A stretch of 64,000 nucleotides of DNA, taken from assembly GCA_017631315.1 (NCBI GenBank), contig JAGBTN010000005.1, forward strand, positions 124,001 through 188,000, written 5' to 3'. The translations under genes and the position numbers were made by a program. The notes below the pieces were generated by a model that did no database searches, was not told where the DNA came from, and was given only the letters and a program-made list of their open reading frames with translations. The stretch is from Bacteroidaceae bacterium. GTDB lineage: Bacteria > Bacteroidota > Bacteroidia > Bacteroidales > Bacteroidaceae. Shown in pieces: positions 1 through 36,355 of the stretch (its first letter is position 1; every line of letters starts with the position of its first letter).

Positions 1-3000
1 GTAGTGGCCAGGTCGAATTTGGCATAGCCGGTGTAGGAACGCGCCACGCCAGTGCCGACACCGCCGGAGTACAAGATAAACTCAAACTTATAGCAGCTGC
101 CGATACCATAAGTGGCGTTGTTTGTCAACCGCTTGTAGGTTTCGCTAAAAGCAATGGGGAAATTAACATTATTGCCGAAATTAACGCCGGCGTCCTGTTT
201 TTCACGGTTATATGTGATGGAGGTGCCGCCGAAGCCAGCACCGTAGTACTCGCCGAAGGTGCTGCCCTTGGCGTGGGTGGTCACCGTCTTGCCTGCCGCC
301 ATGTCGCCGAACTCCGGGCCGCCGCAGTAGAAGTCGACGAAGCTGTTGTTCATCGTGATATCGATGTTGCCCGTGATGCGCGCCGAGGCCGACGTGCCGC
401 CGCCGAAGAACTTGTAGATGCGCGCATGGTCAATCTTCGCCGTGACGTTGACGCCGTTGGTGTTGGGGTTCTCCATGTAGGCGCCCAGCCATTTGTGGAT
501 TCTGCCGCCGGCACCCCAGAAATAGATGTTGGCGCCCGTGGCCGTGGCTCCCGCGCAGTAGCCCGTCATGTAGCATTCCTCTATCTCGCCGCCGGTGACA
601 ACAATTGGGCGGATGGTGGTCACGTAGGCTTTGTCGGTGTGAGAACCGGGATAGAGTTCCTCCACGTAGGCGTTGCCGCCAATCTGCTGGTAGCTCAGCT
701 TGTAGGCATTGTTGTTTCGTGCACGGACAATCTGGATGAAGTAGCCGCTGTTGGCTATCCAGCGATTGTTGCCGTAGCCGTTGTCACCGGCACTGAAGTC
801 ACTGTCGTTGATCTCGCACTCGCTCATGAAGCTGACGCAGGTTTCGGTCAGCTCGAACCAACCACGGCCGTGCCAGATGCCGATGGTGGGATAAGGCGTA
901 CTGCCGGTGACGCGCTCTGCCATACCCATGCCGATGTTTGGCACGAAGTCGAAGCGTATGGGCGGTATCGGGGAGCGGTCTGTTCTATGATAGGAATACC
1001 AGCCATAATCAGGCTCCTGATTGTTGTCCTCGTCCACACTCATGACGGTGCAGGCTTTGGCGGTATTGAAGATTACCGCGTCTTTCCCCTGGTTATAGTG
1101 GTAGTTGCCTACCAGCACGATGGCCTGCGAGTGCGGGTTGGTGCTGTTGGCCATGTCACGGACCAAATCGCTGAGGTTGGTATAGACGGTCCGTCCGTGG
1201 TAGGTGGTAGGAACTTGATAGGCAAGGTCGGTCTGTCCTTCGTAGTTGGTGTTGTAGCCGAAGTCGGCGCGCGCGTCGCTCAGATAGAAAGCATTGGCAA
1301 AGTTGGCCTCGATGCTGATGGCCGTCACGCCGTAGGGCACGATGTAGTTGCCGCCCTGGGCAAAGATATAGGGGTTGGTGGTGGCGTTGTAGATGTCCTT
1401 GGCCGTGCAGTCGCGGTCGGCAAAGTTGTAGTTTGTCAGCGAGCCTGCCGTGCCGCCGGAGACGGAGGTTATCTTCCAGCCGGTGCAAATCTTACTGTAG
1501 TCGCGCGTCCAGCCTTCAAACTCGTTGGCAAAAGGCAGGACCACCTTTCCCCAGGTGAAGTCGTAGCGCAGGGTGTCCATGTCGGTGATGGGCAGGTCGC
1601 AAGAGTAGCTGCTGCCATTGATGCTGACATTGACTCTGAGGTTGCCGCCGTTGCCCATCTCGGTGAGCTTCTTGCCGGCGAAGTCTTCGGAAGTGGTGGG
1701 CAGGTTGGACGCTATTTCTTCTGTGGTCTTCTTCGTGTCGGTCTCCCACGGCTCGATGATGGGATAAGGCGCCACCTCAGGCTTCAGCACCCAGTGGCCT
1801 ATCTCGGCCACCTGGACTGCCAACGGTGCATTGGTGCCGGTGCCGAAGAGGAAGTAGGCGGCCAGCTCGCGATGCGTGTTCTGGATGTGGCGGTAGAAGG
1901 GGAAGCGCGTCAGGAACACGTCCTTGTCGATGGCCAGCTGGTCGTTGTAGGCCGTGTACGTGAGGTTCGCACGAGAGCGGTAGTAGTTGTATTCGGTCAG
2001 CTTCTGCTGGTTGTCGGTGTGGTTGCCGCCATAGACGGGCGAGCGGTTGGTGCCGGAGGTGAGGTCACCGTACATCATGCAGTTGGTGATGCGCACACCC
2101 GTGGTGTTGACGGTCGTGGTGCCGCTGATGGTGCCTTGGTTGCGGCCCACGATGCCGGCGGCATAGTTACCGCCGCTGACGCTGGCATAGTTGTAGCAAT
2201 TCACCACGCGGACGTTGGAGTCCCAATCAATCAGTCCCACCAGTCCGCCGGCATTGGTCGAGCCGCTGACGCTGCCGCTCAGCACGCCGCAGTTATAGAT
2301 CTTTGCTGACCCCGTGGCAGTGCCGCATACGGCGCCCACCGTCTCACCGGAGATGCTGATGTCCTTGAACCGGACGTTCTTCACCGTGCCGCCGTTCAAG
2401 GTCGTGAAGAGCGGCGCCCTAAGGCGGCTGATGGTGTAGTAGCCGCCGTCGAGTGTGCCGCGGAAGGTGGTGACGCCGGGAGTGCCTGTGGCATCACCCG
2501 TCAGACGGTAGTTGCCGTCGGGATTCGTGATTTCTGAGAGTGAGGATATCTCCTGGAGGACAGCTCCCGTTGTAACTTCATATTCATATGGTCGCGCACA
2601 TGTACCGCTTTCTGTCTCAGCACGAGCTACGCCATTGGCAAGATTTATATAATAGGAGGTGTTATTATTATAGCGATTATAAACATAAGTGCCGTTTGTA
2701 CGCCAGCGATAATTATTATTATTATTATTATTGTTAGGAACATTGGTGGCCAGAGCTAAATCAGCATCGGGAGCACCAAGGAAATACCTCGTGCCGTTTA
2801 CTGTCTGGAACAGATAACCATACGTATTGTTATTATTCAGAGTTCCTGCTGTTGTACCAGCCGTATTCGAGGCACAACTCCAAATACATGTTGTTGGATC
2901 AAAAGTTGTAACGCGCTGTACAGCGGTTGTACCATTACGTGCGAGGTAATATGTCGTACCACCATTGACGTATGCCAATACATAGTCGGCAGCCCTGGCT

Positions 3001-3095
3001 CCTGCTGCTGCAAGCAGGAGTGCAAGCGTGAAGAAAAACTTGGTTGATATTCTTCTGAGCATTGTATGTTGTTTTCCCATATCGTTGATTTTCAT
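1..3095 (-). CDS. very large secreted surface protein, 3' part outside the window
   Basis: An open frame of about 1,031 codons runs on the minus strand from an ATG at 3095 to the window edge with no stop. The 3095 start is preceded by AAGGA; in-frame ATGs at 3080 and 3062 are alternatives. A signal peptide follows (MLRRISTKFFFTLALLLAAA, then GARA before ADYVLA), without a lipobox. The first ~200 residues are Asn/Tyr/Thr rich and carry a run of eight Asn. After this comes a GLUG-like stretch (DGGYYTISRL, then VKNVRF and YNCGVLSG type strands), as in bacterial beta-helical adhesins. Near the window edge FGGG and GAGFGG motifs resemble the repeats of the 3,850-residue protein just upstream. It lies 120 bp downstream of that gene on the same strand, so it is probably the last or next gene of the fibre operon. 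Adhesive or structural surface role is inferred; no enzyme motif is seen. Confidence 0.75.
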   Translation of the reverse strand, partial: MKINDMGKQHTMLRRISTKFFFTLALLLAAAGARAADYVLAYVNGGTTYYLARNGTTAVQRVTTFDPTTCIWSCASNTAGTTAGTLNNNNTYGYLFQTVNGTRYFLGAPDADLALATNVPNNNNNNNNYRWRTNGTYVYNRYNNNTSYYINLANGVARAETESGTCARPYEYEVTTGAVLQEISSLSEITNPDGNYRLTGDATGTPGVTTFRGTLDGGYYTISRLRAPLFTTLNGGTVKNVRFKDISISGETVGAVCGTATGSAKIYNCGVLSGSVSGSTNAGGLVGLIDWDSNVRVVNCYNYASVSGGNYAAGIVGRNQGTISGTTTVNTTGVRITNCMMYGDLTSGTNRSPVYGGNHTDNQQKLTEYNYYRSRANLTYTAYNDQLAIDKDVFLTRFPFYRHIQNTHRELAAYFLFGTGTNAPLAVQVAEIGHWVLKPEVAPYPIIEPWETDTKKTTEEIASNLPTTSEDFAGKKLTEMGNGGNLRVNVSINGSSYSCDLPITDMDTLRYDFTWGKVVLPFANEFEGWTRDYSKICTGWKITSVSGGTAGSLTNYNFADRDCTAKDIYNATTNPYIFAQGGNYIVPYGVTAISIEANFANAFYLSDARADFGYNTNYEGQTDLAYQVPTTYHGRTVYTNLSDLVRDMANSTNPHSQAIVLVGNYHYNQGKDAVIFNTAKACTVMSVDEDNNQEPDYGWYSYHRTDRSPIPPIRFDFVPNIGMGMAERVTGSTPYPTIGIWHGRGWFELTETCVSFMSECEINDSDFSAGDNGYGNNRWIANSGYFIQIVRARNNNAYKLSYQQIGGNAYVEELYPGSHTDKAYVTTIRPIVVTGGEIEECYMTGYCAGATATGANIYFWGAGGRIHKWLGAYMENPNTNGVNVTAKIDHARIYKFFGGGTSASARITGNIDITMNNSFVDFYCGGPEFGDMAAGKTVTTHAKGSTFGEYYGAGFGGTSITYNREKQDAGVNFGNNVNFPIAFSETYKRLTNNATYGIGSCYKFEFILYSGGVGTGVARSYTGYAKFDLAT
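2712..2735 (-). repeat. AAC(AAT)7 trinucleotide run coding for eight asparagines
   Basis: Seven uninterrupted AAT codons follow one AAC codon inside the partial giant gene. Length change by slippage would stay in frame, adding or removing Asn residues in the exported N-terminal region. Confidence 0.9.
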
Positions 3096-3215: not shown

Positions 3216-6200
3216 CTATGCATTTCTTCCTACTGATAGTTTCTTCTTGTTGACGATGTAGATGCCCGGTTCGGTCTGTGTCTCGATGGTTTGTCCGGGT
3301 TGGATGGTGAAGACACGGACTACGGAGCCGGCTGTGTTGACGATGCGTACTTCTGTTGCCTCGAGGAGTCCGGACTTGACATAGATGCAGCCACGGCGTG
3401 CGAAGATATGGAGTTGGCCCTTGAGTTCTTCGCCGGGTTCTGTCTGCTCTTCGTCGAGTCCTGTCTCTACGCTGTTGAAGGTAATGGCACGGGTTGCTCT
3501 CGGTGCGCCGTGTTCCTTGACTCCGCTACCTGCTGCGGCGAAGTACGGACGGAAGGGCACTGCCGGTGTCTGGGCGTCGGTCAACTCGTAACTGCTGCCT
3601 TCGGCATTGAGCACATACGCGCCTGCGTCTATTGTAGCGTTCAGATAGTTCGGTGTAAAGACGTAGCCGTTGTGTGTGCTTGCTGCAATGCCGCTGTTCA
3701 TCTCCTGGTCGCTCACGCCGATGATGCCACCGGCGGGCGATGCGAAGGTGATGATTTGTGCATCGAGTGCTTCGACATCGACCAAAGAGTGAGCAGGCAC
3801 GAAGGAGCCGCTGAGGTCGAACTCGTAGTAGGACGAGCCTGGCAGGCCGACGATATAGGGCATGCCTCCCTGTGAATAGGGATAGTCCGTATAGGTCTTG
3901 CTTGCGGCATAGTACTTCTGCTGATAGTCGTCGGTATTCTCGTCCTGACGGTCTGCACCGGAATACTGGTAATAGTAATCCCAGAGGAAGGTGTTGGTGT
4001 ACTGCTTCTCGTTGGCTGCTGCCTCGGGATAGCCGAAGGTGGCCTCGTAGATGTTGGCATTGCCCTCCTTGTATGCGCCGCCTTCGTAGCGACGGAGCCA
4101 GTACTCGTGGCCGGACTCATAGCCTCTGTCGAACTTGGTCGTATCCTTGTCGTAGAAGTGTGTGAGTTCGCCCTTTGTCTGTGTGGTAACCAGTTCTGCA
4201 TCGAACGGCAGGCTGATGCCTATCCAGCCCTTGCTGGTGCGTACAGGTGTCGGGTCGTTGCTCCACTCTATCTCGACGTAGTTTTCGGGTTCACGCTGAT
4301 ACCACATTCTCTTGTCGGCAGCAAAGCCGTATGCAATGGGTGCGTTGAAGTCCTGCTTGTCCACGAGGAAGTGATCGACATCTGTGGCATAGGTATAGTC
4401 TGTCTCGCCATCGGCAATGCTTGTTGTTGCCTGCAAGACGGCGTGACCCTTGATGGCATCGATGTCGGCCTGCTTCTGTATGGCAACCGTACGGTAGTCG
4501 GCATTGTCCTCGGCATAAGCGAGGTCGCGGAAGTAGCCTACAAGCACATCGTGCGTCTGTGTGTTCTTCGTATTGGCAATATCGACAGACGGTGTGTAGG
4601 CCAACAGGTTCTGCGTGAGGCCACTTGTGCGGATGGCATCGAGACGCTCGTAGTCGAGCAGCGGTGCATATTGGTTGCTGCGGTCCTTGAAGTCGGCAGG
4701 CAGACCTGCCACTGCACCCTGATAGCCCTTGGTGTCGCCATTGGCACCTGTGAAGTCGATGGCTGTCATCTGTGCATGCGGCTGAGTAGTGTAGTCGACA
4801 CCATTGATGTTGAAGTTGAAGTTGCTGGTGAAGACTGCATGAGCATTGAACATTGCGCTGCGTCCGTAAGTGCCGTTGCGGAAGTATGCCGGTGCACGGT
4901 AAACGCGATTCGCACTGGTGTTGGCAATATCGTTGATGAGCAAACCATTCTTGCTGTTGTCCACCAAGTCGCCATTCTGTGTGCTGTAGGTCTTGGCTAT
5001 TGCAGCGGGATGCCATTCGTGGGCAATATCGTTACCAGCATTGTTGGTCAGGAGTCCGTAGGTCAACTTCTGTCCGAAGAAGAGATAGTCATCCGGGTAA
5101 AGTGGCAGATAGCCTGCAGTGGCATTGTAGCGCAAGTCGTCGGTAGTAGGCTTGAGCCCCTGGGCAAAACGGAAGTCGCCATCGCTGTAATACTTCGTTA
5201 CATAGTCGTTGTAGGCTTTCGGATAACTGATTTCGTGTATAACGTCCTCGAGATACTTGTCGCCCGTTTCTTCGTCTGTTTTCTCTACACTCTGCTTCGT
5301 GCCATCGGGCAAACGATAGAGCGTGCGGGCTGTGTCTGCTGTGGCAACGTTGCCAAACAGACGATAGCGTGCCTCGAGATAGTAGCGGTTGAGGTCGTAG
5401 GCAACACCACCATTGACGAAGTCTTCGACCGTGCGAGGCTTTATCTCCTCGTTGATGCTTGCAGCAAAGCCATTGGTTGCGGGATAGTAACTGTTGAGTA
5501 TGACAGCATCGGGTTCAGGCTCGGCATAGACAGCCTTCTTTCCGTTGGGTGTGCCGGTTGTCCATATCCAGCAGTTCTCTACTCTGCCCTCGCCAGTATT
5601 GGCAATACCACCGGCAGTGAACGTACCCATAACACCTGTGTTGTAAACCTCGCCACAAAGCTTGCCGAAGATTGAGTTGTCGAGGCCACTGATGGTACGG
5701 CCATTGCCATGGAAACGACCACCGAAGCAACCGTCGGTATCGTTGCCGATGGGGGTCCAAGTCTTTTCCCATGATGCAACACCACCGCCATACTCAATGT
5801 CGGACGACAGATAGAAGTCGAGATTCTTGGCTCCGGTGATGTCACGACCAGGAATGCCATTCACCTCAAACATATATTCTTTGCCATACGAAGTGTTCGT
5901 GATGTTGAACACCTCATGCAGAGCATCGAGTTCGGAAGAATATGTGTCAGTACCTGTCTCGAAGATGTTGTTGCCAATGTAAATCTTCGGGTCGCGGTCG
6001 TTGTCGCGATGGTTGATATACATGTGGTTCGGGTCGGTAATGACGTCGCTCATGCGTTGATAGTTGGCAACCTTGACCTGAACAGGGTCGGAGAAGGTTT
6101 TGCCCAAACGTGTCTCTGCGTAGTATGCTACCCAATAACCGTTCTCGTAGAAATAGAGAGGCTCAATATTATTGAGGAACTTATGTCCGTTGCGATGACG

Positions 6201-9200
6201 GTTGGCATCCGACTCGTTGGCATAAATCTCCCATCCACCAGAGAGGATTGGGAATGCACCCTCCTGCACGGGAGGTACTTCGAGAGCCAAAGGTTCGAGA
6301 GGCAAGATGAGGTCGGGCTCCTCGAGTTGGCCAATGATAGGATTACCACTGAGGAACTTCACACGCAAATTGATGATATGCTTCTCTACACGGGTCTCGT
6401 AGTCGGAACCATCGTCGTCGCACTCGGTATAAGTGTATTCGTAGATTGCTGTCAGGTAACGGTCCTTCTGCAAGGCATTGATGTCGGCACTGACAGGAAC
6501 ATAGAGTGTTGCCTCCTCGATAGGCGTCTCACCCTGGACGTCGAAATCGACCTGACAGTTGGGAATACTAATGATGGCAGAAGAATTGATGATAGTGCCC
6601 AACTCGACAGAAGAGCCCTTTTCATATTTATTTCCTTTAAGGTCATGGAATGTACTCAACTCTTTGTCGTCAACACTCTGCACACCCTCATATACCGTAT
6701 AAGGATTGATGCAGAAATAGAACTTGTTGTTATCTGTCGGATGATACTGCTCCTTTGTGATAATAACCTCCTGAACATTCTTTTGCAACAATTCTGACAG
6801 TTCGGAATAATCTTTAGCCGTGATAGACTTACCTGCATTGTACATCACACCAGCTACGTCGAAGGTCTCCTTCACTATAAACGTGTGATAATTGCCATCC
6901 GCATACACTTCATCGTCTGCACCCTTAAGATGAGCATCGCTGATAGAGAACTGTGCATAGTTCTTGCGGTCGTTAGGCAGACTCTCAAATTCAACGTTCT
7001 TCAATTCATCGGCTGTGCTGATGGTGTGTATAGTTCCCTTATCATCGACATACTTAAATCCGCTGCCATGGTAGGTAGCTGTGTAGTCGAGCGATGTCGG
7101 ACGCGAATACTGAGGCAGAGAGTGCTCGGCATCGTAGTTGTCGTACACTGAAATGGCCGGGTTGCGATTGGTGCCGCCTGCAGTGTTGACGTAGTTCTCG
7201 ATTTCCGAACGGTTGTTGTATGTATAGCCATTTTTGCTATCGTATTTTTTGTAGAGCAAGGCGTCTAATGCATCGAAGTTGTAAGAGAAGTGCTTACGCT
7301 CCTCTGGCAAGAGTTGACAGAAATCTACACCATTGTAGTTGTTGCCTTTTTTATAATATCTTCCTCCCCAGGAACCCTCCTCAACACAATAGTAAGCTGG
7401 CTGGAATTTATCCTTCAGCGAAGCATCCCAACTATTCCATTCTGCATAAGGAACCAATTCGTCGAGAACTCGATAATCGCCCTCCGCTACAAGCACTGTA
7501 CTTACGCAGATGTATGCCTCATCGAAAAGGGCCTTGTCTGTATTCTTTTCATCGTTCACGAAACTCTTGTAGTCTGCCTGACATATCGGCATTCCCTTCG
7601 ATACTGAAACAAGCATGCCGTTGATATAAACCTCGCAGTCCTCCTTCGCAATATAGGTACTATCGAATTTCGCTTGCGTTGCTAGTGTTCCACCTTTCAC
7701 CTCTTCTGTCTGCATATCGAAGACACTCTTGGAGATGATGGCCTCCTTCTTAAAGTAACGTTGTCCGTATGTACCGTCAGCATTACATGTGAATGTGGCA
7801 CTCTTGACGTATGTCTCCTTTTCGGAGTCTGAAAGTTTTTCCCAATCACTCTTCTTTTTAGGAGTGGCTGACGTTGAACTGATAAGCGTATAGTAGTCGT
7901 CCCACTTTGAGGGGTTAGAATAGTCGATGGAAAGCACATAACCGTTAGCACCATCCACTTCATTGAGCAAACTGAATGCTTCGCTGACATTCAGCGCGCC
8001 ACCAACTTCGCCTAAGGCGCCAAGGTCGTCCGTACCAACCAAATCCTTGATACGATTGTAAACCTCTGTGGTCACGGCCTGACCTGGATAGAAGGTTTCA
8101 CTGCCTACAGTAATCTGATAGTTACAGTAGTAACCATCGGTTATGAACTTCTTACGGTCGGTCGTGCTGGCCATATACCAATCCCAATAACTGATGGGGT
8201 CGCCCTGACCATAGGTCTTAATGATGCTGTTGTTGATAAGTGACAACGAATCGGAACGAACATTGTCGGGGTTGGCAGCATCGAAGGAATACTCCAACTC
8301 GCTGGGATCGGCATAGAGTCCGGGTACTATGTTGAGCAAACGCAACTTCGCATTGCCTTGAACAGACAGAGTGAGCGGAATACTGATTTCAGTACTGTAG
8401 GCTTCTGCAGCACCGGTATATGCAGACACAAGTTGTTCGTAAATATAGAACTCACCACGGATGTACCAATAGTGTGCGGGAGATGCATTCTTTCCTACAT
8501 ATTCTTCGGACCTCGGATAACAATCATCGACAATGCGCTTCATGGAATGGATGAAGTTACCAGATGTCTGCATCTTATCCTTGGCAGTTGCTGCAGCGTA
8601 TTCGAAAGCACGATTGGTAATAACATTCTTGTTTGCAGAAGACAGCACATGAGCATAGGTTTTTGTATAATGTGGTTCGCCATGAATGTTCTGGGCATAG
8701 ACATAGCCACCACCTTCACCCGGGCTGACATTGAGCAAGTCTAGTTCGATGACACCAGTAACAGGACCATAAATCTTGTTGCCATTGTTGTCGAAGCCTT
8801 TTACCAATTCCAGGAACACACCCGATGCAAGTGCAATCTTGTTGGGAGATGTTCCGTTGTTACGATTACTTTCATTTATATGCTCTTGCTTCCACTCATA
8901 GTAAGTAGTCGTTCCGTCGGCTTTATCTTCTTCACTACCTGTTATACGTATGGCAGCATCTTCGCCTGCGAAATGCACATCGGAGGTAACACTTCCGAGA
9001 AGCTTTACCACATTGTACATGCCAAAATAACATCCGTGAGTACCGTTCTGATTGAGCGAAAGTTCACCGACACGGTTGATAGTATAATGGGTATAGTCGG
9101 CTTCCGTTTCATCCTGAGCACGGTCAATGGCACCACGCAAGACAAGGCGGCTACCCTTGATGCCACAGAAGTCGCATCGCTGTACAGTGTTGATACAGCG

Positions 9201-12200
9201 ACCTTCGTTGATAATATAGTTCATGGCCTCCCAGTTGCTACGCTCGTCCTCGGGAAGACGATTATATTCTTCGCTCAAGATGACATCGCCCTTCGTATAA
9301 CTACCTTCCTTGTAGTCTTCCTTACATGTGTATTTGGTTACATAAAACGACTTCTGACGTTCTGTCAACTGATTATAATAGTCTGCATCTGCGTTCATTT
9401 GCAGATTGTAAAAGTCTGTACCGTAATTGGTAATGTTCAACTCGCGATAACCATCAACAAAGGTAAGGTTGCCATCACCATAAAGACCACCTACACCATC
9501 GTCACCAATAGTGACAAGGTCTCGACTAAAGGCATCGACTACAGAAGCCGTAGCATTGCCATAAACCGTATTGGCAAATGCCATTACCTTGTCGGTACCT
9601 GCCGAAACGTTACCACCGGCAAAGACAGCATTGTGAATGGTGACACCTATCTGGTCTATTTTCTTCCATGTATCCTTGTCTGTATCATTACCCGTCAGTT
9701 GGTTAAGAGCCTCGGTTTCGATGTATGAACCTGCCGCATAAGTCTTACCACCTACTTCAACATCTTCAAGGGCCTTACCCCATACCTTTACTTCGACATG
9801 AGTATCTTCACTTAAAGTCTTATTCGTCACATCGGTGTAGTACCAACCCTCATATTCTCCGTCGCCTCGCACACCTTGCTTGACGCCGTTGACACTATAG
9901 ACAAAACCGATATTGCCTCCGCCAAAGACATTGCCTACTCCTTCGGCAACACCTTCTGCAGTACCGATTTCACCTCGGTGGATTCGGACATCTGTAGTAC
10001 CGAAGATATAGCCATTCGTGTTGTCGTCGGGAACTTCTTCTGTTCCCCAGTTATTGAAACCACGACCACCACCGAAGACATCTTTCTCTACATGGCCGCC
10101 ATACATTATTACATGTGTCTCGCCAGCCTTGTATTTTTCTATAGTCTCACCTTCTTCGCCTATGATACGGCTACCGCGTCCGACAGCACCAATCTCGCCA
10201 CCACCATAAAGGCTGTTGCGCACATGGCCACCATACATTTTGACGTTTGTGGTATCTACATCACTGTATCTGGCAAAGCCGGCGCCAAAGATGTTACCGG
10301 CACGCTTGAACAAAATCTCATAGTTCGGATCTGTCATGTCGAGGTCTGGAACATATGCTCCATCTTCGTAACGATAGCCCACATAACCATTATATAGAGA
10401 TATGTTTGAAGTACCAAATACAGGACCGCCTTCGCCACCACCATATGCGTTTCTTCTTACAACAGGAATGCCATTATAGAAATCGGCATCGGCTGTGCCC
10501 TCCGGCAGACCAATAACAACGTTTGTGACACCAAGGATGTCGTTCTCTGTGTCGGTACCCGCAGGATGATAACCTACAGGACCTTCCCAACCACCACCAT
10601 AGACATTACGTGCTGTACCGCCCTTGATATAGGCTGTAGCAGATGCCGTAAATTCCGGAATGTCACTATACTTGTGTTTCAAGTTTTTGACTGCACCTGT
10701 CGTACCGGCAGCATAAAGGTCTTTTTCGACCGTGCCGCCAAGAAGGTCTATGTAGCATGTGCCGCTTACTGTGGCAGAAGTAGTAGCCTCGCCATCGACA
10801 GTGATATGCTGTCCGTAACCACCACCATATGCATAATTCTTAACGATTGCTCCCTTGTGAATGTGAACATTGGCATTGCTCTTTTCTGCATAAGCAGAAC
10901 CATAGTCTTTGTACAACTGATTGACATGCGCCAAAGGATTATCCAGTCCGCCATGGTCTGTCGTGGTGTCTGCATCATAGCCGCCACCAAGGAGCAGGCT
11001 CCAATCTTTTGCCTTTGCCTTTTCTGTGATACTCTCTTTGTTGAGTACGTCACCACCATAGCCACCACCAAAGACTTCCCAAACTTCTGCGCCATCGTTC
11101 AGGTTTACCTCTGTATATTGCGACCATGAGTTCTGGCCATAACCACCACCATAGACAGAACCTGTTGTCAGTCCATGTACTTCGTGCATGTACTGTACTG
11201 GCTTCGTCACATTAACAAAGCCATAAAGCGTACGACGATAGTTATTGTTACCACCATATATATAATGTAGGCGAGCGTCCTCACTATGATAGTTTACATT
11301 TGCTTCATATACGTCGCAGACATCAGTATTGGACTGTCCATAAGCACCACCATAGAGGCTATTCATGGCAATAGTGGAACCTTTGGGTACATTGACAATC
11401 GTACGACGCGTTACACCTGCTCGGAAACTGCCACCATAAGCACCACTGTTCTGACCGCCAATCTGGCCACGTACCAAATCGACTACAGCGGCAGCAACAA
11501 CACCTGAACTATTCTCACTTGCGTCTGCCACAGCGACTCCCATGCCAAGACCACTGGCATCGCCAGAGCCAAAGACTTCCATTGCCTGGAAATAGGTCAT
11601 GTCCTGTGGGATGTCAATAAGAACGTAACTCTGGTCCTGGAACTCGTTCTGCTTCTGGAAAGAAACAGAGGTGGCGGCATAGCCTTGACCTGCACCATAG
11701 ACACGAGCAACCTTGTTTGAGGCGTTATAACTGGATGGTTTGAAATTGACAAAAGCATTACCTACATGAGGATATTCCGACACATGATCCTTGTACGATT
11801 CGGAATTATAGTCGTAAGATGCTTTTGCGCCGCCAAAGATGTAATTCACACTTCCCTGATTGTACTCAATATATGCTGATGCCTTCAGGGTGTTGTTATT
11901 ATACACCATGCCATTTGCCTCGGGACTAACCTTCGAGGAGAAATCGGTTGGGGTTTGTATCCTGCCACCAAAGTCATTGGCTCCATATACATTATTTATA
12001 ACTGTGGGGAAGCCATTTGTACCAATATATACTTCTGTATGACCAACCACATCGGCATTACATGCACCGCCAATGACATCATAAGCCGTACCACCATCGA
12101 GGTTCACTGTCGTATTGCCACTAACCGGACCTTCAAAACCACCGCCATAAAGTTTACCGGCATTACTGTTGTCCGAGAAATTGACCGTTGTATGGCCATT

Positions 12201-14768
12201 GACAGAACCACCATAACCACCACCAAAGACCTTCAGGGCACCGCCTTCTGCAGAGAAATCGACAGTTGTATTGCCTTCGATAGTTGCTTCTTTGCCATAG
12301 CCACCACCAAAGACAGTGAGCGGAGTAGCAAATACGTTGCCAGCATTAGCCGGAATACTATAGTCTAAATAACTTTCCTTTGTGGGGTTGCCATCAGCAA
12401 AAAAGTTATCAGGTATCAGATTCTTCTGTACGCTAATACCTACATTGCCATTGACTATACCACTCTCGAAGCAGCCGCCAAATATGTTACCCTGATTGCC
12501 TGCACCAACATTAGACAATTCTTCTGGGGCAGGATTTACATCAAATATAATACCATTGGCATCGATGAAAATCTTGTTCGATGTGACAGACTCTCCTGTA
12601 ACGCCACCAATATGCTTAACATTATTGTCCGATGCTGCTACATTTGCTGCATTACAACCGCCAACTAACTTCTTTGTGATGATGATGGGTTTATCGAAAG
12701 CAATCTCTAGCGCATCGGCAGATGTCATACTACCTACATTACCACCACCGAAGAACGAGCCAATGCGTGCCAGACTGTCTACTTCTTCCGCTTTATAGTA
12801 GTTGCTGTCGAATGCACAAGTCGGCATACAATCCACTGCGGCTCCCAACATATAGGTATCGAAAGTGGCTTGGTCTGTAAAATCCATCGTATTGACGGGT
12901 TCTGACGCTTCACCTACGGTTACCGTTCCGTTCTTATACATGTCGAGCGTTAATGTATCCACCATATTGGCACCATTACTACCCAAGAATACGTCTTCTA
13001 CTGTTACATTTTCGCCTATTTGCAAGTGAATTGCATCGGTAACAGTAGCACTATTGCCGCCACCAAAGACCTTGGGAATGGTTGTTCTGGCTTTGGGTGT
13101 ACCTGCCACATGGATGTAGGATTTCTCTGTCTGCGGACGGAAAGCATTCAGCGACTCAACACTGGAACTGCCTGCTGCATAATAAAGATCGCCATAAGTC
13201 AAGTGGTTTGACAAATTGGCATTGTCCGTATAAACATATGAGCCGTTGCCACCTCCGTAAACCTCTCCGTCGATGCTGCCAAGAATCTGCAAATCCGTAC
13301 CATGATATACGGTTCCTGAGACGTCGTTGCCACCATAGACATTCTTTATTTTACCTGCTGTAATCAAAACACGGGCAGCATAGTCTGCCTGGAATTCGTG
13401 TCCGTTCAGCGTTTCTGCTTTTGGTGCTGTTGTTCCTGGGTTTACATCTGCCTTACGGCAACCGCCATAAACATTCTCAACCACCATGTCGGCACTTTCG
13501 ATAGGAAGGAAAATACCATTGGGGCTGGTCATTCCGCCTTCATTGCCTCCGCTGTAGAGGTCGTAGACAGAACCTTTGGTAAGATGCCAAACAGGACGTA
13601 TGGCCATATCTACCTTATTATTACCACCAAAGACACGATTGAATTGGATGTTGCCCTTGAAGGTTTCCGGATTCAAACCCATTGCCATCAGCCTATCATT
13701 GCTCAACACGGCTGGGTTAATCGACATGGGAGTTGATGCGTTGTTCAGCGAAATCTCTGTGTTTTTGGTTACTGTTGCAAAGTTGCCACCGCCAAAGACA
13801 TAGCCAAAAGTACCGCCCTGTATATCAATATAGCCTTTGGGAAGTTCAGGCTTACTCAAACCACTGAAAGATATGGTTGTCTCCTTATTATCACCAACAG
13901 CAGGGACATCGACCATTGTCAATTCGCCGCCGGTGTAAACATTATCTTCTGAATTATGATAGTCGCCGTTGCCACCTGCATAGAGTTGACCTACGAAGAT
14001 ATGCTTGTCAGCCGATTCGTTTTCTGCACTTGTATGAACATAGGTATTCGTGCTTATGCCATTTATAGTTTGTTCGCCATTTATGGAACCAGAAATATCG
14101 TTGCCACCATAAATGTAGTTCACAACAAGATCTGTCTTTATATTAGTGGCATCGACAAACACATCGCTGTATCCCTGAATGTCTGCCATTCTGGCTCCAC
14201 CAAAGATACTGCCACGCAGATCACCGCCTCGCAGTACGACAGATGTGTTGCCACCTAACTTGGCCTGGTTGCCGCCGCCATAGATGTTTTGATAAATTGT
14301 GCCAGCCTCAACAGTAACCGAACTATTACCAAACACATAGGCAGATTCACCATCGCCGGCACCAAACAAGCCACCATGAATTGTTCCTGTCCAGTTAACA
14401 TTACCCACGGTTCCGCCAATATGAGCAGAATCGACTTCTGTGCTATTCACCGCAACACTCGTACTACCATAGGTGCGACCATTCCTGCCACCACCAAATA
14501 CGGTACGAACGGTTCCGCCATTGATGGTCACACTTGTGGTTAACGAATCCTTGTCTGCGGTGAAAACAACATTTTCGGGAGTAGTTTCGTTTGTTATGCC
14601 ATTGGCCAGATTTCCTGTACCTACAGCACCTTTATTACCGCCACCATAGATGTCACCGCCAATGGTAATTTGGGCATGAAGGTTATGAGAACAGATTTGC
14701 ATCCCCATGAGGAGCAATATCATCAGAATCTTATTTGGTTTGATAACCATATTAAGCTTATTAGGCAT
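3216..14768 (-). CDS. giant secreted repeat protein (3,850 aa), putative fimbria-associated adhesin
   Basis: The start at 14768 (MPNKLN) lies 11 bp after the stop of the upstream fimbrillin-like gene; Met7 is an alternative. The signal peptide ends near SHNLHAQ and has no lipobox, so the protein is exported by signal peptidase I. Residues ~40-1760 hold about forty [VIL][YF]GG(G/N/A) motifs, such as IYGGGNKG, VFGGGYGG and VYGGGWEGP, spaced roughly 25-50 residues with alternating beta-strand patches; this suggests a long beta-solenoid. Residues ~1760-2700 carry a different repeat of about 50-60 residues (YYCVEEGSWGGRYYKKGN type, with LPEDERSNW-like turns). A Pro-rich sandwich-like segment lies near 2735-2830. 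A GLUG-like segment (FHGNGRTISGLDNSIFGKL) lies near 3000-3070. The last ~75 residues (VRIVNTAGSVVRVF, PGIYIVNKKKL) resemble a type IX secretion sorting domain without the usual PNP motif. Frame and export are clear; the adhesin role and secretion route are inferred. Confidence 0.85.
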   Translation of the reverse strand: MPNKLNMVIKPNKILMILLLMGMQICSHNLHAQITIGGDIYGGGNKGAVGTGNLANGITNETTPENVVFTADKDSLTTSVTINGGTVRTVFGGGRNGRTYGSTSVAVNSTEVDSAHIGGTVGNVNWTGTIHGGLFGAGDGESAYVFGNSSVTVEAGTIYQNIYGGGNQAKLGGNTSVVLRGGDLRGSIFGGARMADIQGYSDVFVDATNIKTDLVVNYIYGGNDISGSINGEQTINGISTNTYVHTSAENESADKHIFVGQLYAGGNGDYHNSEDNVYTGGELTMVDVPAVGDNKETTISFSGLSKPELPKGYIDIQGGTFGYVFGGGNFATVTKNTEISLNNASTPMSINPAVLSNDRLMAMGLNPETFKGNIQFNRVFGGNNKVDMAIRPVWHLTKGSVYDLYSGGNEGGMTSPNGIFLPIESADMVVENVYGGCRKADVNPGTTAPKAETLNGHEFQADYAARVLITAGKIKNVYGGNDVSGTVYHGTDLQILGSIDGEVYGGGNGSYVYTDNANLSNHLTYGDLYYAAGSSSVESLNAFRPQTEKSYIHVAGTPKARTTIPKVFGGGNSATVTDAIHLQIGENVTVEDVFLGSNGANMVDTLTLDMYKNGTVTVGEASEPVNTMDFTDQATFDTYMLGAAVDCMPTCAFDSNYYKAEEVDSLARIGSFFGGGNVGSMTSADALEIAFDKPIIITKKLVGGCNAANVAASDNNVKHIGGVTGESVTSNKIFIDANGIIFDVNPAPEELSNVGAGNQGNIFGGCFESGIVNGNVGISVQKNLIPDNFFADGNPTKESYLDYSIPANAGNVFATPLTVFGGGYGKEATIEGNTTVDFSAEGGALKVFGGGYGGSVNGHTTVNFSDNSNAGKLYGGGFEGPVSGNTTVNLDGGTAYDVIGGACNADVVGHTEVYIGTNGFPTVINNVYGANDFGGRIQTPTDFSSKVSPEANGMVYNNNTLKASAYIEYNQGSVNYIFGGAKASYDYNSESYKDHVSEYPHVGNAFVNFKPSSYNASNKVARVYGAGQGYAATSVSFQKQNEFQDQSYVLIDIPQDMTYFQAMEVFGSGDASGLGMGVAVADASENSSGVVAAAVVDLVRGQIGGQNSGAYGGSFRAGVTRRTIVNVPKGSTIAMNSLYGGAYGQSNTDVCDVYEANVNYHSEDARLHYIYGGNNNYRRTLYGFVNVTKPVQYMHEVHGLTTGSVYGGGYGQNSWSQYTEVNLNDGAEVWEVFGGGYGGDVLNKESITEKAKAKDWSLLLGGGYDADTTTDHGGLDNPLAHVNQLYKDYGSAYAEKSNANVHIHKGAIVKNYAYGGGYGQHITVDGEATTSATVSGTCYIDLLGGTVEKDLYAAGTTGAVKNLKHKYSDIPEFTASATAYIKGGTARNVYGGGWEGPVGYHPAGTDTENDILGVTNVVIGLPEGTADADFYNGIPVVRRNAYGGGEGGPVFGTSNISLYNGYVGYRYEDGAYVPDLDMTDPNYEILFKRAGNIFGAGFARYSDVDTTNVKMYGGHVRNSLYGGGEIGAVGRGSRIIGEEGETIEKYKAGETHVIMYGGHVEKDVFGGGRGFNNWGTEEVPDDNTNGYIFGTTDVRIHRGEIGTAEGVAEGVGNVFGGGNIGFVYSVNGVKQGVRGDGEYEGWYYTDVTNKTLSEDTHVEVKVWGKALEDVEVGGKTYAAGSYIETEALNQLTGNDTDKDTWKKIDQIGVTIHNAVFAGGNVSAGTDKVMAFANTVYGNATASVVDAFSRDLVTIGDDGVGGLYGDGNLTFVDGYRELNITNYGTDFYNLQMNADADYYNQLTERQKSFYVTKYTCKEDYKEGSYTKGDVILSEEYNRLPEDERSNWEAMNYIINEGRCINTVQRCDFCGIKGSRLVLRGAIDRAQDETEADYTHYTINRVGELSLNQNGTHGCYFGMYNVVKLLGSVTSDVHFAGEDAAIRITGSEEDKADGTTTYYEWKQEHINESNRNNGTSPNKIALASGVFLELVKGFDNNGNKIYGPVTGVIELDLLNVSPGEGGGYVYAQNIHGEPHYTKTYAHVLSSANKNVITNRAFEYAAATAKDKMQTSGNFIHSMKRIVDDCYPRSEEYVGKNASPAHYWYIRGEFYIYEQLVSAYTGAAEAYSTEISIPLTLSVQGNAKLRLLNIVPGLYADPSELEYSFDAANPDNVRSDSLSLINNSIIKTYGQGDPISYWDWYMASTTDRKKFITDGYYCNYQITVGSETFYPGQAVTTEVYNRIKDLVGTDDLGALGEVGGALNVSEAFSLLNEVDGANGYVLSIDYSNPSKWDDYYTLISSTSATPKKKSDWEKLSDSEKETYVKSATFTCNADGTYGQRYFKKEAIISKSVFDMQTEEVKGGTLATQAKFDSTYIAKEDCEVYINGMLVSVSKGMPICQADYKSFVNDEKNTDKALFDEAYICVSTVLVAEGDYRVLDELVPYAEWNSWDASLKDKFQPAYYCVEEGSWGGRYYKKGNNYNGVDFCQLLPEERKHFSYNFDALDALLYKKYDSKNGYTYNNRSEIENYVNTAGGTNRNPAISVYDNYDAEHSLPQYSRPTSLDYTATYHGSGFKYVDDKGTIHTISTADELKNVEFESLPNDRKNYAQFSISDAHLKGADDEVYADGNYHTFIVKETFDVAGVMYNAGKSITAKDYSELSELLQKNVQEVIITKEQYHPTDNNKFYFCINPYTVYEGVQSVDDKELSTFHDLKGNKYEKGSSVELGTIINSSAIISIPNCQVDFDVQGETPIEEATLYVPVSADINALQKDRYLTAIYEYTYTECDDDGSDYETRVEKHIINLRVKFLSGNPIIGQLEEPDLILPLEPLALEVPPVQEGAFPILSGGWEIYANESDANRHRNGHKFLNNIEPLYFYENGYWVAYYAETRLGKTFSDPVQVKVANYQRMSDVITDPNHMYINHRDNDRDPKIYIGNNIFETGTDTYSSELDALHEVFNITNTSYGKEYMFEVNGIPGRDITGAKNLDFYLSSDIEYGGGVASWEKTWTPIGNDTDGCFGGRFHGNGRTISGLDNSIFGKLCGEVYNTGVMGTFTAGGIANTGEGRVENCWIWTTGTPNGKKAVYAEPEPDAVILNSYYPATNGFAASINEEIKPRTVEDFVNGGVAYDLNRYYLEARYRLFGNVATADTARTLYRLPDGTKQSVEKTDEETGDKYLEDVIHEISYPKAYNDYVTKYYSDGDFRFAQGLKPTTDDLRYNATAGYLPLYPDDYLFFGQKLTYGLLTNNAGNDIAHEWHPAAIAKTYSTQNGDLVDNSKNGLLINDIANTSANRVYRAPAYFRNGTYGRSAMFNAHAVFTSNFNFNINGVDYTTQPHAQMTAIDFTGANGDTKGYQGAVAGLPADFKDRSNQYAPLLDYERLDAIRTSGLTQNLLAYTPSVDIANTKNTQTHDVLVGYFRDLAYAEDNADYRTVAIQKQADIDAIKGHAVLQATTSIADGETDYTYATDVDHFLVDKQDFNAPIAYGFAADKRMWYQREPENYVEIEWSNDPTPVRTSKGWIGISLPFDAELVTTQTKGELTHFYDKDTTKFDRGYESGHEYWLRRYEGGAYKEGNANIYEATFGYPEAAANEKQYTNTFLWDYYYQYSGADRQDENTDDYQQKYYAASKTYTDYPYSQGGMPYIVGLPGSSYYEFDLSGSFVPAHSLVDVEALDAQIITFASPAGGIIGVSDQEMNSGIAASTHNGYVFTPNYLNATIDAGAYVLNAEGSSYELTDAQTPAVPFRPYFAAAGSGVKEHGAPRATRAITFNSVETGLDEEQTEPGEELKGQLHIFARRGCIYVKSGLLEATEVRIVNTAGSVVRVFTIQPGQTIETQTEPGIYIVNKKKLSVGRNA

Positions 14769-14779
14769 ATATTTGCTAA

Positions 14780-15982
14780 TTATGGATTCGTGGTTAAGCT
14801 GATGGTTGGATTATCAAGGTCTGTACCTGACAACTGATAGAGATAGTCGGGGGCAACGTGCATGTTGACACTGACTATTTCGCCAGCACCGATTTCTTTC
14901 AATTTGGGAATCAGAGTCGTATTGATTTTGTTTTCTATCACATTGTCCTTTCGGATGAGATTGTCTTTCTTGTCATAAACGTTGTATGTTGTACGAAGCA
15001 CAAATTCACTGACCAGATTAGGCACGAAGCAACCCAAGAAGCTTTCCGGAATTGTTTCGGGGACCTCGAATTCTTCAGGACTGCCTTCGTAGGGGAAGAG
15101 GATTGTGGATGTGGTTTCCGGCTCACCTACTGCCGTATATGATGTGTATGTTACGGAGTCGGGGGCAACAGGATCTTTTCCTTGATCGTTTGCTACAAAC
15201 TTCACTGTCAAATCAACCTTTGCAGAGATTTCTTTTGCAATGAGTTCCAGTTTGGTAACTCTGATGCAACGCAACTTGTGGTATGCTGGGTCGATACTGC
15301 ATCGGAAGTGAATACCCGCATAGATGTGTTTCAGCAGAACAAAAATGCGATTCTCGCCATTAGCCATGCCCTTGTACCCGAAATTGCCCAACTTGATGTC
15401 TGACTGCGGACCTGTAATTTTCTCTTCTGCCGTAGCATTGCGAACACCGACAAGGACACAAACGTCGGCCGATGTCAACGATTCGTAGTTCTTAATCGTC
15501 AGTTGGGCACCTTTTGCATATCCTTTGTCTGGACCTGAGGTGTCGGCATCTGGCAAAGGACTGATGACTGCTCTGTCGGCGTCTCCACGTGGCATAAATC
15601 CATAAATATAATATTGTGTGCCCTCTTTAACGGTGACTGTTGACTTCCATACACTTATACCATTCTCTATGCCCTGATAAATGAAGTCGCCCAAAGAGGA
15701 TTCCTTCTCTGGTGTCATGAACACACCAATCGTCTTATTTGGCGGTGTGGTGGTAGGATAGAGTTGGTCGTACGGAATATAGTCCTTTGGAAGAAAATTC
15801 TCATAGTCGGCACGCGTTGTTCCCTGTTTCTGCACATCGAGGAAAGGAGCGGTAAGAGATACCAACTCCATTGTATGATGCTTCTGCTCCCCGGCAGGTG
15901 GTTCGGGTTCGTTCTGACAGGCTGCCAGCAGCATCATGCCAACAAAGCATGACAATAATCTTATGTCCTTTATATGAATCAT
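14780..15982 (-). CDS. fimbrillin-like lipoprotein (400 aa)
   Basis: The N-terminus has a lipobox (MMLLAAC, Cys22), so it is a lipoprotein. TTRADY places an Arg-Ala bond at residues 57-58, like the maturation site of type V fimbrillins. The C-terminal third (TYNVYDKKDNLIRKDNVIEN, then APDYLYQLSGTDLDNP) matches the pattern of Bacteroidales fimbrillin-family/Mfa-like proteins, in which C-terminal strands take part in donor-strand polymerisation or anchoring. It lies 36 bp downstream of a second fimbrillin gene and 11 bp upstream of the 3,850-residue protein, consistent with co-transcription. It could be a minor, anchor or tip subunit; sequence reading alone does not decide. Confidence 0.75.
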   Translation of the reverse strand: MIHIKDIRLLSCFVGMMLLAACQNEPEPPAGEQKHHTMELVSLTAPFLDVQKQGTTRADYENFLPKDYIPYDQLYPTTTPPNKTIGVFMTPEKESSLGDFIYQGIENGISVWKSTVTVKEGTQYYIYGFMPRGDADRAVISPLPDADTSGPDKGYAKGAQLTIKNYESLTSADVCVLVGVRNATAEEKITGPQSDIKLGNFGYKGMANGENRIFVLLKHIYAGIHFRCSIDPAYHKLRCIRVTKLELIAKEISAKVDLTVKFVANDQGKDPVAPDSVTYTSYTAVGEPETTSTILFPYEGSPEEFEVPETIPESFLGCFVPNLVSEFVLRTTYNVYDKKDNLIRKDNVIENKINTTLIPKLKEIGAGEIVSVNMHVAPDYLYQLSGTDLDNPTISLTTNP

Positions 15983-16018: not shown

Positions 16019-17185
16019 TTACCAATTGAATACCGGATGGTCAACGGGTGGCATGACCTGTACCCAGCCCTTGACTGCGACCTGTATGACATCGATGGTT
16101 ACGCCGCCCTTCTCGTTGATCTTGAACACGTAGGTATATTCGTGACCGGCCTTCCAGGTCATGTATGAAGCAGGAACTGTGGCAGTCTTAATCTCTGGAG
16201 ACGAAACAGCCACCTCGAGTATGTAACTGCCTTGCTTTTCCGTAGGGAGTACGTTGTACCACTTCTCCACCGTATTGGGCCATGTTGTTGGTTCTCCATC
16301 GGCAGGTACGTCTTCGGGGATTTCGGTAGGAGTGGGATACCAGTCGATGGTAAAGGCATCGATGCCTCCTGTTGGTTCAACAGACCATGTCTCCTTTGTG
16401 CCTGTGCCTGTCAGAGGATAGGTAATGGTTACGTTGCCCACGGCTGGAATCTTGGGGCTGCCTGCATCGGAATCTGGTATAGGATAAAACCTGATTTTGT
16501 GGAGTGATTCGCGACCGAAGTCAAGACCGTCGACGAACGTAAACATAAAACGTACGCGCGCGAAGGGTTTCAGGAAACTCAGGGTTACAGGCTTTCCGTA
16601 GGTTGCTTCCTTGTCGTTGCTGAACCACAACTCGGAGAAATAGGGGGCAGCATCGGCTTTGGCATCTGTGGTTGCATCTACGGCTGCTGTGAAGGAGATC
16701 TTTGTGTCGTCGGAGGTATCTACTGTTACTTCCGACGGATCTACTGCTGGCACATCAGAGGCATTACCCTGGGCATAAGCCATGAAGCGATAGGCAGAAG
16801 CCGAGTAATCCCAATACTTGACGTACTGATTGTCTATTCCTACATACTCCCAGTCGTTGGTGTTGGAGGTTGTAGTGTTTGCAGTGCCGTTGCCCCACAT
16901 GACGGTATATCCGGGCATCACCGCCTGGCTGCCAGTATAGTTGGCACCACTAACGGCTGTGTTCTTGTACGACCAGACCTTGAAGGCCTTGCTGTCGAGC
17001 ACTTCCTCCAGCCCTCTGTCGGCACGCGATACTACTTCTCCGTCTTGTAAATTGCCGGAGAAGCAGATGGGCTTCTGCTGTCCCTGTTCCGGATCGACCA
17101 CCTCGCTATTGGTGCAGGCGGAGAAACCGAGGGCGAGCAGGAGCAAAAGACTCGCACTGAAGTTTATATTTCTTTTCTTCTTCAT
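16019..17185 (-). CDS. fimbrillin-family lipoprotein (388 aa)
   Basis: MKKKRNINF is followed by a hydrophobic stretch and the lipobox GFSAC (Cys24). VVSRAD gives an Arg-Ala candidate processing site at residues 54-55. The block FKVWSYKNTA ... YVKYWDYSASAYRFMAYA is the typical N-terminal-domain signature of Bacteroidales FimA-like proteins, and the paralogue just upstream has the equivalent IKYWDYSTTDYRFVAG. The C-terminus (YTYVFKINEKGGVTIDVIQV, VKGWVQVMPPV) is the usual fimbrillin end. Two strong hairpins lie immediately upstream of the start (17196-17228 and 17266-17296) and may set its expression relative to the upstream subunit. It is probably a structural or accessory pilin of a type V pilus. 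Confidence 0.8.
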   Translation of the reverse strand: MKKKRNINFSASLLLLLALGFSACTNSEVVDPEQGQQKPICFSGNLQDGEVVSRADRGLEEVLDSKAFKVWSYKNTAVSGANYTGSQAVMPGYTVMWGNGTANTTTSNTNDWEYVGIDNQYVKYWDYSASAYRFMAYAQGNASDVPAVDPSEVTVDTSDDTKISFTAAVDATTDAKADAAPYFSELWFSNDKEATYGKPVTLSFLKPFARVRFMFTFVDGLDFGRESLHKIRFYPIPDSDAGSPKIPAVGNVTITYPLTGTGTKETWSVEPTGGIDAFTIDWYPTPTEIPEDVPADGEPTTWPNTVEKWYNVLPTEKQGSYILEVAVSSPEIKTATVPASYMTWKAGHEYTYVFKINEKGGVTIDVIQVAVKGWVQVMPPVDHPVFNW

Positions 17186-17265: not shown

Positions 17266-17296
17266 TGCCAAGCAGGGAGTCGAACCCTACTTGGCA
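17266..17296 (-). other. tRNA-like minihelix hairpin (acceptor plus T-arm look-alike)
   Basis: On the minus strand TGCCAAG pairs with CTTGGCA. Inside it AGGG-TTCGACT-CCCT is a textbook T stem and T loop. The layout is that of a tRNA acceptor stem stacked directly on the T arm, with D and anticodon arms absent. It lies 19 bp after the stop of the 519-residue fimbrillin. It may be a degraded tRNA, an attachment-site remnant, or a 3'-end stabilising hairpin. Confidence 0.55.
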
Positions 17297-18977: not shown

Positions 18978-19014
18978 TTATAGTTATAGTTATAGTTCTA
19001 GTTATAGTTCTATT
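18978..19014. repeat. TATAGT hexanucleotide repeat at a stop codon
   Basis: The plus strand reads TTATAGTTATAGTTATAGTT then CTAGTTATAGTTC, about five to six units of a 6-bp repeat. On the minus strand it contains the TAA stop of the DUF5119-type gene and runs into the leader of the 519-residue fimbrillin. Length change would alter spacing but not the protein before the stop. Confidence 0.8.
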
Positions 19015-27639: not shown

Positions 27640-27670
27640 AATTCTATCTATTATCATTCAAGGTAATACT

Positions 27671-29014: not shown

Positions 29015-29015
29015 A

Positions 29016-29762
29016 TTATTTAGTTTTTTTGTTGTGTACTTTTGTGCAAACTATTTGATCGTCATAAGCAAGACTGATTGTCTTGTATTTATTCCAACCT
29101 ACGCGCTCCAATCCCTCCTGATAGAAGATGCGCAATCTGTTGAGTTTGTTCCTGAAATTCTCTGTACTGCCCAATTCTATGACATGTTTGCCTATACGCG
29201 GATAAAGTTCTATCTGCTCTGGAGCCGCAACATGTATCTGCTCTATCTGCTCGCTCCAGAACAAATCGTTGCGAATATATCTGGCAAGTTCCAAAAGCTG
29301 CTCCGATGCAAACTCCTTCGTAACATTACCTGTTGCTACACACAAATCCACATTAAAATTGGCCGTCGGCATTGTCAAGCCATTGCTCGCCAAATAATAG
29401 TCTTCTCCCTTCTGACTGATTACATGCAGTATAGGCTGCTGAGGTTGCACCTCTATACAAAGCCTGCTTGCTGCATCATAATAACAAGAAGCACCTTCGA
29501 TGTGCGACTCCTTAAGCAGCAACTCCTCTATCTGTTCTAGCCTCACGTCGCATATCTTCATCCCTATGGGCGAAATCTTATTGCGAGTCAGTATGGAGCG
29601 AACATATTCGTCGGTAATGAAACCATCTGGAATACTGTCGATGATTTCAACTCGAATACCTTCACAAATCCTCTCCTCTGCCTGCCCACTGAATCGCCAG
29701 ACAGCCATCACAAGGTAACCCAATACGGCTACAAGCAGAAATAACTTCAATACTGTTTTCAT
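29016..29762 (-). CDS. ftsQ: cell division protein FtsQ/DivIB
   Basis: The 248-residue product has one N-terminal membrane segment (LKLFLLVAVLGYLVMAVWRF) and a periplasmic body. The first ~80 periplasmic residues (VEIIDSIPDGFITDEYVRSI ... ESHIEGASCYYDAASRLCIE) fit a POTRA-like domain. Identification rests mainly on topology and on position between murC and ftsA. Its start overlaps the murC stop by 4 bp. Confidence 0.85.
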   Translation of the reverse strand: MKTVLKLFLLVAVLGYLVMAVWRFSGQAEERICEGIRVEIIDSIPDGFITDEYVRSILTRNKISPIGMKICDVRLEQIEELLLKESHIEGASCYYDAASRLCIEVQPQQPILHVISQKGEDYYLASNGLTMPTANFNVDLCVATGNVTKEFASEQLLELARYIRNDLFWSEQIEQIHVAAPEQIELYPRIGKHVIELGSTENFRNKLNRLRIFYQEGLERVGWNKYKTISLAYDDQIVCTKVHNKKTK

Positions 29763-32259: not shown

Positions 32260-32270
32260 TATATATTACA

Positions 32271-33491: not shown

Positions 33492-33511
33492 GGTTTCTTG
33501 TTTTGCTTTTC

Positions 33512-34846: not shown

Positions 34847-34849
34847 CTC

Positions 34850-36115: not shown

Positions 36116-36195
36116 TGAATGTATGTTTTGTTATATCTTTCTTTCTCTAACTCTTTTCCCCTCTCTGCATCCTCGCATTGCTCCTCCGCCAAAAC

Positions 36196-36276: not shown

Positions 36277-36355
36277 GCATCGTGCCTTTTTGCCCGATGA
36301 AATGGGGCTTTTTTGCTTCGTTGTGTCGATGCAGGAGACGCCTCTCCTCCGCCGT

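Follow-up and report, generated by a model that had tools for sequence, protein, structure and literature searches.

The gene and its family

A gene for a protein of 3,850 amino acids, situated directly behind genes of fimbrillin-like lipoproteins, raises the question whether so large a protein is part of a pilus and, if so, which part. The gene was found in a stretch of 64,000 nucleotides (the window) of an uncultured gut bacterium, Bacteroidaceae bacterium (GCA_017631315.1, contig JAGBTN010000005.1, positions 124,001 to 188,000 of the forward strand). It occupies positions 3216..14768, stop codon included, as one open frame on the minus strand with its ATG at 14768, which bears out the protein length and extent given by an earlier sequence-only reading of this DNA. 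Searches with the whole protein, referred to here as the giant, found nothing significant in Pfam, NCBIfam or the PDB sequences. No description of such a protein was found in the literature, judged on titles and the starts of abstracts, with most subscription papers and all preprints outside the scope.

The giant belongs to a real and conserved family. A search with its N-terminal 1,760 residues covered 301 genomes of the taxonomic family from which the window comes; 50 of them, in 9 of 30 genera, gave a match, some of these matches being partial, at contig ends or weak (G267, G238). Across the order, a profile of residues 1120-2319 found the protein in 6 of 295 genomes, which include the window's own and represent three families. 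A scan of named genomes yielded 79 giant loci among the best 80 of 336 candidates. The carriers among these matches are uncultured Bacteroidales whose labels are in most cases Bacteroidaceae, Prevotellaceae or Prevotella; the sources named in the titles of the listed records are roe deer, water buffalo, sheep, goat, cattle, yak, red deer and horse, other records naming none, and the RUG records among them are presumably rumen genomes. The closest giant among the matches listed comes from roe deer colon and is 91% identical. Seventy listed copies, among them that of the window, are complete with a length of 3,300 aa or more; they range from 3,376 to 4,846 aa (median 3,925) and are 41-91% identical to the window giant.

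Ten loci fall outside this set of 70: seven are open-ended and three (L128, L138 and L143) have frames below 3,300 aa. Shortened or split frames were seen in L128 (2,397 aa), L138 (786 + 3,249 aa), L143 (1,427 + 2,655 aa) and L065 (2,316 + 897 aa), and represent either broken genes or assembly errors. One contig (G235:C10) holds two giants in one genome (L038, L039), each preceded by its own gene similar to FIM5, the fimbrillin-like gene described below. Locus L066, on G238:C50, has a frame that encodes 6,303 aa (4,586 aa within the locus as delimited here); it shows weak similarity to the giant and may encode a distant relative.

GGG repeats and predicted fold

The N-terminus resembles a signal peptide (residues 1-33, 14670..14768, minus strand, end set by eye) and carries no lipobox pattern. 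It is followed by the GGG-repeat region, approximately residues 34-1770 (9459..14669, minus strand), which is predicted to be a beta-solenoid on the basis of motif statistics, spacing in the family and an AlphaFold2 model of residues 1120-2319. About forty [VIL][YF]GGG motifs had been counted here initially. As written this number does not stand, since the strict form occurs at 15 sites in residues 1-1760, where [YF]GGG has 18 and [YF]GG 33 sites; it does hold for a loosened motif (one that also admits FGAG, YAGG, VGG and similar), of which 41 sites are found in residues 36-1770, 37 of them spaced by at least 15 residues. The enrichment lies far above chance expectation. In 1,000 composition shuffles the strict motif occurred 0.12 times on average (maximum 2), [YF]GG 4.1 times (maximum 12) and the 41-site loosened motif 8.9 times (maximum 18). 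Among the 70 complete giants listed, the spacing of GGG-type motifs peaks at 25-28 aa with many longer gaps, which is the pattern expected for beta-helix coils with loops.

Structure prediction had been proposed for residues 40-1760, and was performed for residues 1120-2319 with 66 family sequences (mean pLDDT 81.5, pTM 0.79). The GGG part within this segment consists mostly of strands in a strand-YGGG-strand rhythm, interrupted by a few short helices, and is thus predicted to be mostly beta and solenoid-like. By their motifs, the GGG residues outside the modelled segment would continue this solenoid; its handedness and an unbroken course through the region are likewise presumed from the model. 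The prediction for the part modelled is thus solenoid-like, as anticipated, but without a significant fold match in the PDB: neither this model nor that of the C-terminus described below had a PDB match in Foldseek that reached E 0.001. Sequence searches of the PDB were likewise without a significant result, both for a profile of residues 1120-2319 and for the N-terminal 1,760 residues. The weak Foldseek matches of the GGG model included the beta-helices 7jvi, 3sze (EspP) and 7kob (Ag43b) together with unrelated folds such as P450s. The best of them, 7jvi (E 0.014, TM 0.11/0.21), is a beta-helix domain from a capybara gut metagenome, but at 8% identity it offers no evidence of homology. The rise of a beta-helix is about 0.48 nm per coil. 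At one coil per GGG site, 37-41 coils, the solenoid of the giant would be approximately 18-20 nm long.

A second repeat and a GLUG-like segment

A different repeat had been noted in the roughly 900 residues that follow, and it proved to be real. Within residues 1655-2668 a unit of about 40 residues is repeated 7-8 times, and its copies are unevenly spread over residues 1664-2668 (6765..9779, minus strand). An HMM seeded with window units picked by eye, and iterated on matches within these same proteins, matched all 79 giant loci among the matches listed, no GGG2 protein (see below) and no shuffled sequence, with a mean of 4.9 units per giant at E 0.01. No significant relative of the unit was found in the PDB (best E 0.2).

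The GLUG-like part fared less clearly. The segment of approximately residues 2990-3100 (5469..5801, minus strand, boundaries by eye) matched the profile of 3n6z, a 'putative immunoglobulin A1 protease', with E 0.002 over only about 130 profile positions, but no Pfam match to GLUG was obtained in the window protein.

C-terminal sorting domain and predicted export

Residues 3783-3850 (3219..3422, minus strand) had been described as sorting-tail-like, a description well supported across the family and weakly for the window copy taken alone. Profiles of type A sorting domains were run against the C-terminal 91 residues of 60 giants, drawn from the 70 complete ones listed. With E no higher than 0.1 (best 7.3e-9), TIGR04183 was found in 55 of the 60 C-termini and in none of 60 control segments, taken from these giants with their end placed 110 residues earlier; PF18962 was found in 22 of the 60 C-termini, the window copy not among them. 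Alone, the window giant matched TIGR04183 with E 0.0011 and 18.8 bits, under the curated cut-off of 23 bits. A profile of the C-terminus retrieved the gingipain CTDs (E 0.067-0.28) and RemA (E 0.083) from the PDB, ranked below two designed proteins. An AlphaFold2 model of the C-terminal 1,161 residues reached a mean pLDDT of 81.0, and its CTD resembled that of RemA in a T9SS complex (8gl6) with a Foldseek probability of 0.99 and E 0.11. Judged by these profiles, the C-terminus of the giant is a type A T9SS sorting domain.

Components of the type IX system were found in the carriers. Both SprA and GldN were found in the window's genome (G000). SprA was detected in 49 of 50 giant genomes, but it is common in genomes lacking the giant as well (184 of 251; Fisher p 2.4e-5, with genomes counted regardless of kinship); the sole giant genome without an SprA match, G010, has GldN. 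GldN itself was present in six of eight genomes tested, and the two lacking it carry no giant. A lipobox pattern, sought within the first 45 residues of called ORFs, occurred in only 1 of 81 giant ORFs, the window copy not included, and in 40/42 FIM3, 50/71 FIM5, 11/13 DUF5119 and only 8/24 FIM4 ORFs of the genes located upstream.

The fimbrillin gene run

The giant is part of a run of genes on one strand (minus in the window), transcribed in the order DUF3575, DUF5119-like, FIM3, FIM4, FIM5, giant, GGG2. The first gene encodes a DUF3575 protein (20174..21901, PF12099 E 1.8e-13) and the second a DUF5119-like lipoprotein (19002..20177, PF17145 E 0.034, under the cut-off). FIM3 (17315..18874) is a lipoprotein homologous to FIM4 (hhalign E 2.4e-47), while FIM4 (16019..17185) and FIM5 (14780..15982) are fimbrillin-like lipoproteins. 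FIM5 is separated from the giant by 11 bp, and the giant from GGG2 by 120 bp. A 12-bp terminator-like hairpin between FIM3 and FIM4 (17266..17296, minus strand; 17 such sites found versus 15.7 expected in shuffles) is possibly an attenuator between major and accessory subunits. The counts of sigma-70-like and terminator-like sites were near shuffle levels, and no site with a Bacteroides-type promoter pattern was found directly before the run.

The assignment of the three lipoproteins as fimbrillins relies on family profiles and on conserved residues. The Pfam domain Mfa_like_1 was matched by 3 of 28 FIM5 members (best 1.2e-5) and 3 of 25 FIM4 members (best 2.9e-12); among the window proteins FIM3, FIM4 and FIM5 none has a Pfam fimbrillin match of its own, nor did any of the 21 FIM3 rows match a fimbrillin. 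Profile alignment of FIM5 with FIM4 gave 90% probability over only 42 columns. The sole PDB match of the FIM5 profile was the Bacteroides fimbrial protein 3sy6 (weak, E 0.033); the FIM3 profile gave one weak unrelated match and the FIM4 profile none. An invariant Cys and an invariant Arg are present in all 28 FIM5, all 21 FIM3 and all 25 FIM4 rows, at positions 22/57, 19/48 and 24/54, respectively, in the window proteins; in the relatives these positions depend on the ORF start chosen. Fimbrillins of P. gingivalis are reported to be lipidated mostly at positions 19-21 and cut by Arg-gingipain at 43-54 (PMC4789730). The invariant residues of FIM3-FIM5, as far as sequence can tell, are consistent with lipidated, Arg-cut type V pilins. 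The run thus combines two features of a type V (Fim/Mfa) cluster, namely fimbrillin (Mfa_like) subunits with a putative lipid-attachment Cys followed by a putative maturation Arg approximately 30-35 residues further on. The placement of the giant right after fimbrillin genes, on which its proposed link to a fibre had been based, is therefore supported by FIM5, FIM4 and FIM3 upstream.

FIM5 in particular accompanies the giant. Among the matches listed, 77 loci could be assessed for a FIM5-like gene directly upstream, defined by a BLAST score above 40 bits and a position on the giant's strand no more than 600 bp away; 72 of them have one, with a median gap of 16.5 bp. The misses are L092, L102, L108, L136 and L138, yet in L092 and L138 a FIM5-labelled ORF precedes the giant. 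Within the first 35 loci (L033-L067) the FIM5 label stands beside the giant in 32 and is absent in L054, L059 and L066, although in these three the FIM5 profile has a match on the contig that carries the giant (G190, G217 and G238). Among the 301 genomes the FIM5 profile matched 85 at E 0.001, and 46 of these are set apart at 5.4e-27 or better, the next being 2.2e-8. All 46 strong-FIM5 genomes carry a giant, a figure to be read with the cut picked post hoc from the list and with genomes that are not independent. The giant carriers without a strong FIM5 are G145, G263, G267 and G279, and in G145, G263 and G279 the giant starts at a contig end.

The second GGG-repeat protein

GGG2, the last gene of the run, lies partly in the window (3..3095, minus strand); the whole gene encodes 1,726 aa (L032:13918-19095, minus strand). 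Among the matches listed, a GGG2-like ORF follows the giant on the same strand within 6 kb in 60 of the 62 loci with at least 3 kb of downstream sequence, L092 and L129 being the exceptions; in 28 loci it lies within 650 bp, and in 32 at 1.1-5.8 kb with intervening ORFs. GGG2 thus belongs to the giant's gene run. Its similarity to the giant is limited to the coil repeats, with a best local match of 33% over 215 columns. The window GGG2 contains a Peptidase_M26_N segment (E 2.4e-9) and three relatives contain Fn3_assoc domains. A lipobox pattern was present in none of 74 GGG2 ORFs, and no sorting domain was found by NCBIfam (five proteins) or Pfam (four proteins).

Thirty-nine GGG2 ORFs are complete and reach 400 aa or more; 33 of them have a coil within the last 80 residues, and in 29 of these 33 it ends 1-9 residues before the stop (3 residues in the window GGG2). 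In 58 of 72 giants among the matches listed, a first-coil pattern was found inside the first 120 residues, and 48 of these 58 carry AQ or ADI just ahead of the first coil, usually at a distance of two residues. The first coil of the giant would therefore begin about two residues past the presumed cleavage site, and since it and the terminal coil of GGG2 are both apparently uncapped, the end of GGG2 could dock on the start of the giant. That the two dock in this way as halves of one non-covalent beta-helix, a continuous spike of 5,576 residues on a pilus tip with GGG2 exported together with its partner, is an unlikely possibility.

Proposed role of the giant

The best explanation, with a probability of about 0.6, is that the giant is exported by T9SS and serves a type V (Fim/Mfa-like) pilus as an ancillary subunit, most likely as its tip adhesin. 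Type V pili are widespread in the Bacteroidales, but most of what is known about their tip proteins comes from P. gingivalis. According to this proposal, the giant would be exported by Sec, its signal peptide would be cleaved, and the type A C-terminal domain recognized by the profiles would pass it to the type IX secretion translocon. Outside the cell, the N-terminal ~1,740 residues would fold as a beta-helix in which each coil has about one GGG turn, as predicted for the modelled part, and form a stiff spike. FIM5 may join the giant to the fimbrillin filament, as co-occurrence and adjacency suggest, and GGG2 may be a component of the giant's structure. We infer from these sequence relations that the giant is attached to the pilus. 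It would then work as Mfa5 of P. gingivalis does, with the beta-helix replacing the vWF head. The initial suggestion of the 'tip or stalk of a giant surface fibre' is in keeping with this as far as the tip or an ancillary position is concerned, which fits the layout, the part-modelled solenoid, the sorting tail and the place after the fimbrillins; a stalk is not supported, because a solenoid of only ~18-20 nm is likelier to be a tip spike than a shaft.

By role, Mfa5, an ancillary protein of the tip of P. gingivalis Mfa1 fimbriae, is the nearest known protein. As described in four reports (PMC7835359, PMC8313007, PMC4789730, PMC5954841), it is like the giant a large protein with a T9SS C-terminal domain and lipidated fimbrillins as neighbours, is not matured by Arg-gingipain and is encoded by the last mfa gene; some strains carry two tandem mfa5 genes, comparable to the tandem of giant and GGG2. 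The giant is about three times longer than Mfa5 with its 1,228 aa (PMC9409006), and has a predicted beta-helix and ~40-residue units where Mfa5 has vWF and Ig domains. No Pfam match to a vWF head or Ig-like domains was obtained in the window giant, and Mfa5 was not among the matches of its PDB sequence searches. Some Mfa5 genotypes are reported to lack vWF (PMC8313007), and mfa5 of P. gingivalis is reported to be transcribed separately (PMC5954841). As the giant has no vWF and mfa5 is reportedly transcribed alone, the giant would be Mfa5-like in function rather than an Mfa5 homologue, and the best reading is that of a type V pilus accessory protein from a family for which the literature listed gave no description.

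Somewhat unlikely, in our estimate, is a surface adhesin or spike that T9SS anchors in the outer membrane via its processed C-terminus and that would share only the gene run with the pilus. The type A sorting domain speaks for such a protein, as in known cargo this domain usually leads to cleavage and surface anchoring. The adjacency of FIM5 and its co-occurrence with the giant (all 46 strong-FIM5 genomes) argue against it, as does Mfa5, which carries the same kind of domain and is nevertheless described as a pilus protein (PMC7835359).

A secreted polysaccharide-active enzyme for plant fibre, with a beta-helix of the pectate-lyase type, would agree with the solenoid-like prediction and with the titled sources among the matches listed, usually ruminants or other herbivores. 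It is improbable, since the window giant has no match to an enzyme family in Pfam or NCBIfam and the family keeps a fixed position in the fimbrillin gene run. T9SS cargo proteins of Prevotella intermedia have beta-helical bodies, as predicted for the giant, but differ in carrying 1-3 pectin lyase domains per protein, and 'fimbri' is absent from the main text of the report on them (PMC11969387). The stalk of a contact-dependent toxin of the CDI or filamentous-haemagglutinin type, a long beta-helix with which the length and predicted beta-helical N-terminus of the giant would agree, is extremely improbable, because the C-terminus is, by its profiles, a sorting domain common to the family and not a variable tip, and because no immunity gene was noticed among ORFs of at least 150 aa or with a match, a search that a small one could escape.

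If the pilus-tip assignment is true, type V pili can bear exchangeable, very large tip modules, and the gene run of the giant offers a defined setting for the study of tip docking and of T9SS export of proteins of nearly 4,000 residues. Herbivore guts are the source of many of the named carriers, so that a role in attaching to plant fibre or mucus can be put forward as a speculation.

Neighbouring DNA

In 11 of the 79 loci among the matches listed (L074, L083, L093, L099, L106, L114, L132, L133, L135, L137 and L146) the giant is followed within 3 kb by an ORF that encodes 382-570 aa and contains an MPEHLH-type motif; L115 and L148 appear similar by eye. Two copies gave no Pfam match; the motif resembles that of REP-associated Y1 transposases. 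Further along the window, an MmeI-type restriction-modification enzyme is encoded at 56765-59566 on the plus strand. The genes scanned at 26332-39995 on the minus strand encode division and cell wall proteins, including FtsZ, FtsA, two Mur ligases, a family 28 glycosyltransferase and a PBP with PASTA.
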